Source: Lysobacter antibioticus HS124 | GTDB taxonomy: Bacteria > Pseudomonadota > Gammaproteobacteria > Xanthomonadales > Xanthomonadaceae | DNA length: 64,000 nucleotides | Assembly (NCBI RefSeq): GCF_000336385.2 | Contig: NZ_HG424449.1 | Location: forward strand, 1 to 64,000 | Reading direction: 5' to 3' | Shown: positions 617 to 13,915 of the stretch, piece by piece | Position numbering within the stretch: position 1 is the stretch's first letter | Layout: each line of letters begins with the position of its first letter | Made by a program: the position numbers and the translations under genes | Notes under the pieces: generated by a model | What the model was told of the DNA's origin: nothing | The model's database searches: none | Seen by the model: only the letters and a program-made list of their open reading frames with translations

Positions 617-830
617 GCCGTGGCCGGCCGGCGCCGCTGCGCCGTCCGGGCGGAGCGGGCGCGTAAAGGGTGGCAATTATCGCAACTTGAAAGTGCTGTC
701 TGTCGGTCGGGGCCGTCCGCCGGTAGCGACTGTGCTTCGCCGCGCTCGAGATCAAGGCCCGGATTGGGCCCGCGGGCGCTGTGCGCGGCGACCGAGGGGC
801 CCTGCAAGTGACCGATCTCGGCCTAAAATG

Positions 831-845
831 TGACGCAAGTCGTCA
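831..845. promoter_or_regulatory. Inverted repeat upstream of the sigma-54-like promoter
   Basis: A perfect 5-bp inverted repeat, TGACG-CAAGT-CGTCA, with its centre about 72 bases upstream of the -24 element. Position and symmetry fit a binding site for a sigma-54 activator, but 5-bp arms can arise by chance. A second partial copy of the half-site (TAGTGACATTTAG) follows at 847-859. Confidence 0.35.
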
Positions 846-907
846 TTTAGTGACATTTAGATTGATGTATGAGTAATTTTTAGTCAGTCCCAGCAAAACT
901 CTCGTTC

Positions 908-924
908 TTGGCATGCGCTTTGCG
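908..924 (+). promoter_or_regulatory. Sigma-54 (-24/-12) promoter candidate
   Basis: TGGCATG-CGCT-TTGC at 909-923 matches the sigma-54 consensus TGGCACG-N4-TTGC at all but one base, with the invariant GG and GC exactly 12 bases apart. Transcription would begin near 935, about 115 bases before the beta-barrel gene. It lies in the AT-rich block of the intergenic region and points toward the operon. Confidence 0.6.
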
Positions 925-937
925 TACCCATCAAATT

Positions 938-953
938 CGTGATCTTCATCACG
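938..953. promoter_or_regulatory. CRP/Clp-like operator
   Basis: CGTGA-TCTTCA-TCACG is a perfect 16-bp palindrome matching the CRP-family core GTGA-N6-TCAC. Xanthomonadales use a CRP homologue, Clp, that binds this sequence. It overlaps the predicted start of the sigma-54 transcript, a position that would favour repression. If another promoter is used, the effect could be activation. Confidence 0.5.
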
Positions 954-1050
954 TATTTATGCGCAAGCGAGTGGCCGGGCACCTGAGTCCGTGCCCCTCG
1001 TCCGAACCGCACAGCCCACTTTGGGTTGTGGTAGGAGGCATGGCACGGAT

Positions 1051-11257: not shown

Positions 11258-11611
11258 CGCGGCGGCCTTTATATGATGCAAATCATCTCACGCCGGTCGG
11301 GCCTCGGTGCAAACTGAGGCGGCCTGTGTTGGCGACGGGTGTTGATGGCGGGGCGGGAGAGGGCCTTGGTGCGAGACGCGACCGGCGTCTGCGGGGTCCG
11401 GATGGCGGCTGTTTGCCGAACTTGGCGAGTGATTTCGAAGTTTAAGTGTGACACATTGACCACTTTCATGAACTGATTCAGGATGCGCGCCGTAGTCGAA
11501 CCCTGACTGGGCCCACCGGCGCCACGCGCGCCGGTCGCCGCCGGGCCAGGCAACCTTCGCTCGCTTTCGCATTCGATGGCGCGCTCCGTCGCGCCGCTCA
11601 GGGGACTGTTC
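11258..11611. other. Divergent promoter region between TetR and GEVED/DUF11 genes
   Basis: About 350 bases without a gene. It contains the ATGAT-N4-ATCAT palindrome at 11273-11286 and an AT-richer block at 11431-11480 (TTTAAGTGTGACACATTGACC) with a possible -35 (TTGACC, 11456-11461) facing the plus-strand gene. No clear -10 was found. Confidence 0.45.
11273..11286. promoter_or_regulatory. Likely TetR operator
   Basis: ATGAT-GCAA-ATCAT, a perfect 5-bp inverted repeat 16-29 bases upstream of the TetR start codon, in a short AT-rich patch. TetR regulators commonly bind such palindromes over their own promoters. Confidence 0.45.
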
Positions 11612-13915
11612 GTGAAAATCCATCATCAGGCCGCGGCTCTGCGCCGACGGTCGGCGCCGGCGCGTGCGCGTCTGGGCAGCGGTGCGCTCGCGTTCGCCTT
11701 GTGCCTGGTCGCGGCCCTGGTCGCACCGATCGCGCCGGTGCGCGCCTATCAGGCGCCGACGTTGATCGCCGCCGGGCTCAACGCGGCCGGCGGCACGTAC
11801 GTACTGCCGAACAATTATCTGGTCGGCCTGGCCGTGGCCGGCGGCAATCTCGCCATCGACACCGCGTCGACCACGTTCAACGGCATCGGCGGGCCGGTGG
11901 CGACTCACTACAGCCCGGGCATCGCACCGGCCACGCCGGCGCTGAAGCTGGACGCCAACGCCGGCGGCTGCGCGATCGCCGCCGCGCGCCAGACCTGCGC
12001 CAACCGCGGCACGGTCACGCTGACCTTCCCGCAGCCGGTGCGCAATCCCTCGCTGCATTTCAGCGGGCTCGGCGGTAACGTCGCCGGGGGCGGCCTGCGC
12101 GCCAATCATGCCGCGCGCTTCACCATCGCCTCGGCCGCCAACGGCGCCACTGCGGTGACAGGCCTGACCTGGACCCGCACCGCCGGCAACGCCAACTTCG
12201 CCGCCACCGCGACCCAGGCCTACAGCAACGTCCTGGCCGGCAACACCAGCTGCACCGTCGCCAACAACCCGGCCGCCTGCGGCAGCTTGCGCATCAACGG
12301 CACGATCACCCGGCTGGTGATCGGCGTCGGCCTGGACACCCAATTGCAGAGCGGCTCGGTCACCCTGGACAGCGGCCACGTCGACGCCCTGAGCCTGGCG
12401 GTGACGGTCGAGGAGGACTTCGGCGACGCGCCGGCGAGTTACGACGCCGGCCAGGCCGCGGTGCATGTGCTCAGCGATCTGAGCATCGGCGGCAACCTCA
12501 GCGCCGACAACGCCAATCTCGCCGCCGCGACCGCCAGCCCGCTGGCCAGCGCCGCGGCCGATGCCGACAGCGACGACTTCGTTTGGCCGGCCCTGGTGCG
12601 CGGACGCAGCGTCAACCTGAGCGTGCCCCTTGCCGGCGCCAGCCGCGCCGGCACCGCCTGCGGCTGGGTCGATGTCGACAACAACGGCAGCTTCGCCGCG
12701 GCCGAAGGCGCATGCGCCGGTTTCGCGGCCGGCGCGACGGTCCTGCCGCTGACGATCGCGATACCGGCCAATGCGGTCGCCGGCCAGCGCGTGGCGCGCG
12801 TGCGGGTGAGCTACGGCAGCGCGCTCAGTGCCGCTACTCCGAGCGGCCGTGCCGACAGCGGCGAAGTCGAGGACGCCTTGGTGCGGGTCGCCGAGCCGGC
12901 ACGGATCGTGCTGCGCAAGACCACGCTCGGCGGTACCGGCAGCTTCGGCTTCGCTCTCGGCAACACCGTGCAGGCCGGCGGCAGCGCGACCACCGTCGCG
13001 ATCGGCACGCCGGTGCAGGTCGATGGCGACACCGCGACGGGCGGCGTTCAGGGCTTCGCCGTGCAAAGCGCCGGCGCGGCGGTTTCGATCGACGAGAACG
13101 CGCTGCCGGCCGGCTGGCGATTGAGCTCGGCGCGCTGCACCGATGCCGGCGGCGCCACGGTCGGCAGTCTGTCGGGCACGGTGTATGCGATACCGGGCAG
13201 CGCTACCGGCCTGGATGCGGTGTTGACCTGCGACTTCGTCAACGCCCGGCAGCCGTTGCTGCGCCTGCGCAAGAGTCTGCCGCTGGGCCGCTTCGTCGCC
13301 GGCGACCAGTTCGTGTTGAGCATCGCGGGCAACGGCGCGCCGGTGTCGGCGACCACGAGCGGCGCCGGCGACGCGCCGCCGGAAATCGCAACGATCGACC
13401 CGGCCGAGATCGGTACGGTTTACACCTTCGGCGAAACCGGCGCCGGCGCCACCGATCTGTCCGGCTACACCACCACGTACGCATGCAGCAACGCGCTGCC
13501 CGGCGGCCAGGCGCCGAGTGGCAACGGCCGCAGCTTCGCGCTGACCCCGGTGGCCGGCGACGACCTGACCTGCACCTTCCGCAATACCCGACAGCCGCTC
13601 GCCGACCTGACCATCCACAAGACCAACACGCCGGCCGCCGGGGCGGACGACCCGTCCGGCGACACGCTGGCGCGCGGCGCGAGCACCACTTACACCATCG
13701 TGGTCGGCAACAACGGCCCGGACGCGGTGACCGGTGCGATCCTGCGCGATCCGATCGCGAGCCGCAGCGGCATCCGCTGCACTGCGCCGCCGAGCTGTAG
13801 CGGCACTGCTTGTCCGGCGGGTCTGAGCCTGGCTCAGCTCGATGCCGGCGTGGCCTTGGGCACCTTGGTCAACGGCGGCTCGGTGACGGTAACGCTGACC
13901 TGCACGGTCGACTGA
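11612..13915 (+). CDS. Exported surface protein with GEVED, prealbumin-like and DUF11 domains
   Basis: 767 residues from GTG 11612, chosen because AGGGGA ends six bases upstream; an in-frame ATG at 11576 has no ribosome site. A signal peptide (hydrophobic core ALAFALCLVAALVAP, cleavage near VRAYQ) is followed by an adhesin-like domain (about 35-265), a GEVED domain (about 270-430: EEDFGDAPASYDAG, WVDVDNNGSF, SGEVEDALV), two prealbumin-like domains (about 435-660, each ending CDFVN or CTFRN), and a terminal DUF11 repeat (ADLTIHKTNTPAAG to CTVD). It ends abruptly after DUF11 with no anchor. Likely a secreted or surface adhesin-like protein, architecturally related to the DUF11 protein at 5475 but in a separate transcription unit. 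Confidence 0.8.
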   Translation: MKIHHQAAALRRRSAPARARLGSGALAFALCLVAALVAPIAPVRAYQAPTLIAAGLNAAGGTYVLPNNYLVGLAVAGGNLAIDTASTTFNGIGGPVATHYSPGIAPATPALKLDANAGGCAIAAARQTCANRGTVTLTFPQPVRNPSLHFSGLGGNVAGGGLRANHAARFTIASAANGATAVTGLTWTRTAGNANFAATATQAYSNVLAGNTSCTVANNPAACGSLRINGTITRLVIGVGLDTQLQSGSVTLDSGHVDALSLAVTVEEDFGDAPASYDAGQAAVHVLSDLSIGGNLSADNANLAAATASPLASAAADADSDDFVWPALVRGRSVNLSVPLAGASRAGTACGWVDVDNNGSFAAAEGACAGFAAGATVLPLTIAIPANAVAGQRVARVRVSYGSALSAATPSGRADSGEVEDALVRVAEPARIVLRKTTLGGTGSFGFALGNTVQAGGSATTVAIGTPVQVDGDTATGGVQGFAVQSAGAAVSIDENALPAGWRLSSARCTDAGGATVGSLSGTVYAIPGSATGLDAVLTCDFVNARQPLLRLRKSLPLGRFVAGDQFVLSIAGNGAPVSATTSGAGDAPPEIATIDPAEIGTVYTFGETGAGATDLSGYTTTYACSNALPGGQAPSGNGRSFALTPVAGDDLTCTFRNTRQPLADLTIHKTNTPAAGADDPSGDTLARGASTTYTIVVGNNGPDAVTGAILRDPIASRSGIRCTAPPSCSGTACPAGLSLAQLDAGVALGTLVNGGSVTVTLTCTVD

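Follow-up and report, generated by a model that had tools for sequence, protein, structure and literature searches.

Clp, the CRP-type regulator of Xanthomonas and Lysobacter, is known chiefly as an activator. The direct targets described in Lysobacter, for example the HSAF operon, are activated from upstream sites, and c-di-GMP inhibits the DNA binding of L. enzymogenes Clp (PMC7577485). An L. enzymogenes clp mutant forms more biofilm, in a study that could not name the receptor through which c-di-GMP affects biofilm; deletion of lchP raises c-di-GMP, yet biofilm is not increased (PMC9758175). In Xanthomonas, clp mutation raises the xag polysaccharide genes (PMC8042644) and pgaABCD is raised in an rpfG mutant of X. 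oryzae pv. oryzicola (PMC3609779); for xagABCD and pgaABCD, our literature search turned up neither a sigma-54 promoter nor a Clp operator over +1. Matrix-related genes under sigma-54 are known elsewhere, from berA of Burkholderia cenocepacia, controlled by BerB and RpoN (PMC5552954), and from the RpoN-dependent fap genes of Pseudomonas fluorescens (PMC9207406), but these are other genes in other hosts, and no Clp/CRP operator is described for them. Finally, a CRP-family protein can hold back a sigma-54 promoter, since CRP-cAMP inhibits Pu (PMC3900584); that case involves a heterologous host and AR1-dependent poising of the polymerase, with no conserved operator over +1.

The locus studied here lies in a stretch of 64,000 nt, hereafter the window, from a Lysobacter genome (G000) available as a draft of 183 contigs. 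Ahead of an operon for a barrel, an OmpA-family and a DUF11 protein, an earlier note on this DNA had placed a sigma-54 promoter with exact -24/-12 spacing, an upstream TGACG-N5-CGTCA palindrome and a perfect GTGA-N6-TCAC site at the start of transcription, and all three are present (Table 1). Direct reading of the window gives TGACGCAAGTCGTCA as the core of the upstream palindrome, exactly where the note had placed it (831-845); TGGCATGCGCTTTGC at 909-923, with the exact GG-N10-GC and the letters of TGGCAYR-N4-TTGC; and GTGATCTTCATCAC at 939-952, within an inverted repeat, CGTGAT-CTTC-ATCACG, spanning 938-953. The position of the last can be refined: if A935 is +1, this CRP-like palindrome covers about +4 to +19, just past the start. 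Compared with the TGTGA-N6-TCACA type, its outer pair is C-G, not T-A.

Table 1. Features of the leader and of the downstream operon (window coordinates)
Feature	Position	Strand	Remarks
Upstream palindrome GTGACG-N5-CGTCA	829..847	.	centre about -97; proposed enhancer-binding-protein site
GTGACA half-site adjoining upstream palindrome	850..855	+	possible second contact; weak basis
Sigma-54 -24/-12 promoter TTGGCATGCGCTTTGCG	908..924	+	GG 910-911, GC 922-923
Predicted transcription start A935	935..935	+	12 nt 3' of GC; from sigma-54 geometry
Clp/CRP-type putative operator CGTGATCTTCATCACG	938..953	.	centre +11.5
Ribosome-binding site AGGAGG	1033..1038	+	from sequence; downstream start codon conserved in L. 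antibioticus 13-6
Predicted outer-membrane beta-barrel protein, large, 1124 aa	1051..4425	+	weak Big_1/invasin-like N-terminus
OmpA-family protein, 342 aa	4438..5466	+	PF00691 E 9e-16
DUF11 repeat protein, SdrD_B-like end, about 1132 aa	5475..8873	+	PF01345 E 9e-39; TIGR01451

The leader resembles known sigma-54 promoters with enhancer sites in its exact GG-N10-GC, its TGGCAYR-N4-TTGC letters and, as a candidate enhancer site, its palindrome at about -97, and differs from the usual ones in carrying a CRP/Clp-type putative operator over the start point. Each of the three elements is the sole match to its own (for the sigma-54 site, strict) pattern in the window, with dinucleotide shuffling giving expectations of 0.15 for the sigma-54 site, 0.53 for the CRP-like palindrome and 0.03 for the upstream palindrome. 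The CRP-like palindrome is unremarkable by itself; the occurrence of all three elements inside 125 bp is remarkable. A possible second copy of the upstream palindrome, on contig C124 (TGTGACGTAAGTCGTC), is near-identical but has no promoter features and was set aside.

The closest relative of the operon with real divergence is that of L. antibioticus 13-6 (79% protein identity), and the two leaders were aligned. Core letters of the three elements, preset by the motifs of the earlier note save for an added G830 and for A913 of the sigma-54 site, are kept at 28 of 28 positions, as against 85 of 177 other leader positions (48%; Fisher p about 1e-8). In L. antibioticus 13-6 the upstream palindrome is perfect (GTGACGCATGACGTCAC, GTGACG-N5-CGTCAC), the sigma-54 site is kept as TTGGCACGTGGCTTGCG and the Clp-type palindrome stands at the same place as a perfect consensus, TGTGATTCACGTCACA; the half-site adjoining the upstream palindrome is partly kept, as GTGTCA. 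Since a 2-nt indel falls between the sigma-54 site and the CRP-like palindrome, these two elements are kept as separate units. For the upstream palindrome, conservation refers to this one species comparison. Footprinting, together with the reversed-pattern controls given below, ruled out a chance origin of the elements.

We refer to a sigma-54 -24/-12 site followed by a GTGA-N6-TCAC palindrome over the start point as the composite. At the barrel/OmpA/DUF11 operon it occurs in only two species and three genomes (the window's, the same-species G007 and L. antibioticus), which counts against the explanation developed below. No composite precedes the relatives of the operon found in other members of the family, at 60-65% and about 48% identity, and the upstream stretches examined at distant barrel paralogues in other Lysobacter held no sigma-54 site. 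Four of the operon relatives without the composite (L033, L034, L035 and L037; 64-65% identical, from one genus with small genomes) have in common a (C)ATCACACTTT or GTCACACTTT box about 200 nt 5' of the aligned first residue.

The same architecture recurs before pgaA, the PNAG export gene. Strict patterns were used in the motif searches, and the counts are lower bounds. Nineteen of 20 Lysobacter genomes hold the composite, with 24 matches in all and none for the reversed pattern; it precedes pgaA in 18 genomes, three of the remaining matches belong to the barrel/OmpA/DUF11 operon and three look like chance. The window's own genome has a second composite, a strict sigma-54 site with a Clp-type palindrome just 3' of it, before a PgaA homologue (TIGR03939, full-length, 407 bits, above cut-off). 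Alignment of 17 pgaA leaders as far as the start codon leaves nothing invariant but the -24/-12 and GTGA/TCAC letters, with a spacer of 11 to 22 nt. A stricter scan of 247 genomes of the family returned 15 composite matches (control, 0), 14 of them at PgaA homologues, of which four belong to two genera other than Lysobacter; the remaining match is at the L. antibioticus barrel/OmpA/DUF11 operon. Because PgaA homologues occur in 74 of the 247 genomes, the composite is a minority arrangement. The upstream TGACG-N5-CGTCA palindrome was not seen at pgaA. Most of the 17 Lysobacter pgaA leaders (e.g., L102 and L121) carry a further common block, GATTTRAATCGATCTAAA ... TGTCAAACCGCG, some 100-140 nt 5' of the -24 element, which is unlike the window's palindrome and may be a pgaA activator site. 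No report of a sigma-54/Clp promoter at pga was found in our literature search.

These comparisons support, at the level of sequence, the earlier suggestion that sigma-54 and Clp would jointly control the operon, through the L. antibioticus footprint and through the same architecture at pgaA in Lysobacter and two other genera. The suggestion had also been tied to surface lifestyle or motility. The surface part stands, given a design in common with a PNAG matrix gene; the motility part does not, as none of the composite matches found lies at flagellar or pilus genes.

The palindrome might act in the RNA instead of binding a protein. The 938-953 inverted repeat would fall within nucleotides 1-20 of the transcript, where a hairpin could have a role in stability or attenuation; a terminator-like scan flags a 6-pair stem followed by TATTTAT. 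We regard this as highly improbable, since conservation among the pgaA leaders and in L. antibioticus follows a CRP/Clp site, (T/C)GTGA-N6-TCACA, and leaves the inner positions unconstrained, and since a perfect TGTGA-N6-TCACA lies near pgaA, with no sigma-54 site, in several other genera (L198-L203, L206, L208, L210, L213). The latter arrangement suggests in addition that Clp control of pgaA may predate or outrange the sigma-54 part.

The genome encodes one RpoN (a single Sigma54_DBD match, E 7e-63) and one Clp (L150; NF008732 above cut-off). This Clp shares 79% identity and an identical recognition helix with the solved X. campestris protein (3IWZ). In its Clp and its CRP-type palindrome the system resembles the Clp regulon of Xanthomonas and Lysobacter; the difference lies in the site, which at this sigma-54 promoter spans +4 to +19 instead of lying upstream. 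Three proteins of the CRP/FNR family with full-length cNMP-binding and HTH architecture are encoded in the genome, so the palindrome could be used by another of them, for example the FNR-like L148. The CRP recognition helix CSREMAGR is present in Clp only, L148 matches FNR, which prefers TTGAT half-sites, and L149 is divergent; we therefore hold use by another family member to be very unlikely.

The explanation that we consider probable is a sigma-54 promoter served by an enhancer-binding protein, with Clp as a repressor over +1 and c-di-GMP relieving repression jointly here and at pga. Sigma-54 RNA polymerase would bind the -24/-12 site at 909-923 and wait for the enhancer-binding protein, whose most likely site is GTGACG-N5-CGTCA, some 97 bp upstream. 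GTGAT-N4-ATCAC, at about +4 to +19, would be occupied by a Clp dimer that blocks polymerase loading, melting or escape; at high c-di-GMP this block would be lifted, and the barrel/OmpA/DUF11 operon would be made together with PNAG. Given that c-di-GMP weakens the DNA binding of Lysobacter Clp, high c-di-GMP should derepress both the operon and pga, while the lack of a biofilm increase in the lchP deletion suggests that c-di-GMP may act on Clp only locally.

Repression is favored over activation because the Clp site lies across DNA that polymerase has to occupy and clear, because its distance to the -12 element varies and because no -10 element follows it at class I or class II spacing. The drift of the spacer from 11 to 22 nt likewise fits a steric block and not phased activation. 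The published effects of clp mutation on biofilm and on xag, of rpfG mutation on pgaABCD and of CRP-cAMP on Pu are in keeping with this reading. Clp is nonetheless best known as an activator, as at the HSAF operon (PMC7577485), and from 938-953 it might activate a downstream sigma-70 promoter in class I or II fashion, with the sigma-54 site forming a separate second promoter. A -10-like hexamer at either distance is found in 0 of 19 leaders, a search of 600-1100 of the window turned up no sigma-70-like promoter, and the palindrome stays with the sigma-54 site in all composite-bearing genomes aligned, all of which make Clp-activated sigma-70 transcription unlikely.

Seven strongly matching sigma-54 activators are encoded in the genome: NtrC, the PilR-like L157, the VpsR-domain protein L158, the response regulators L159 and L160, the receiverless L161 and RtcR. 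Known targets exist for NtrC and for RtcR, which leaves five candidates (L157-L161). The TGACG-N5-CGTCA palindrome, being conserved at this operon but not seen at pgaA, is probably an operon-specific activator site. The palindrome was also considered as a VpsR site through the pattern TGNC-N7-GNCA. The VpsR site quoted for V. cholerae craA, TTTCACAATTGAGA (PMC6890996), is different, and the assignment was rejected.

L158 may still be the activator, in which case c-di-GMP would act twice, by releasing Clp and by firing the promoter, a refinement of the repressor model that we find possible but doubtful. In its favor, L158 contains a VpsR domain (PF20161, E 3e-20) and adjoins a fap-like operon, and there is a c-di-GMP-binding enhancer-binding protein, BerB, whose sigma-54 promoter controls exopolysaccharide (PMC5552954). 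On the other side, TTTCACAATTGAGA is unlike GTGACG-N5-CGTCA (GTGACGCAAGTCGTCA), a comparison with one quoted site for a specificity that may differ between species, and L157 (PilR-like), L159, L160 and L161 are equally free candidates. The neighboring operon, on contig C65, resembles Fap functional-amyloid clusters (L175; peptidase C39 and a barrel), and what is probably its first gene is preceded by a near-consensus GG-N10-GC stretch, GGCACGACTTTCGC.

On the repressor model, the same sigma-54/Clp design before pgaA implies that the barrel/OmpA/DUF11 operon is probably switched on, and so co-expressed, with the biofilm matrix. The model yields a testable rule, a sigma-54/Clp switch common to Lysobacter pgaA and this operon, and makes the pgaA switch a candidate direct target behind the biofilm increase reported for clp mutants (PMC9758175). 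It also marks an uncharacterised operon, for which our literature search found no paper, as a likely member of a matrix or attachment program. More tentatively, Lysobacter and some relatives may possess a dedicated class of biofilm-matrix promoters, sigma-54 start sites with a Clp operator over +1, which c-di-GMP both frees (from Clp) and fires (through a c-di-GMP-binding enhancer protein). The operon would in that case encode a so far unrecognised export system for matrix or adhesins that has been drawn into this class.

The predicted structure of the barrel protein is of low confidence (mean pLDDT, 57.9); its best structural matches, LptD, SlpA and TonB-type barrels, have low TM-scores and were uninformative as to identity. 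A second gene for a large surface protein (SpaA_3, SpaA_4, GEVED, DUF11) lies at 11576-13915 of the window, and the 380 nt checked upstream of it contain neither a sigma-54 nor a Clp-type site.

Genome-wide, the strict sigma-54 pattern has 19 matches in the window's genome, as against 2 for the reversed pattern, with glnA and rtcB, both expected, and several secreted-protein genes among the genes concerned. In L. antibioticus the corresponding counts are 14 and 8 for the control, and single sigma-54 sites need careful reading for that reason. Some of the sites hint that sigma-54 controls surface genes more widely in Lysobacter. Strict sites precede genes for secreted or surface proteins in the window's genome (L068, L069, L070, L071 and L076) and in L. 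antibioticus (L138 and L142). The families behind them are StcE-type beta-sandwich, beta-helix, GEVED and SpaA_2, with one protein of no known family, and the SpaA_2 and no-known-family cases are found again in L. antibioticus.
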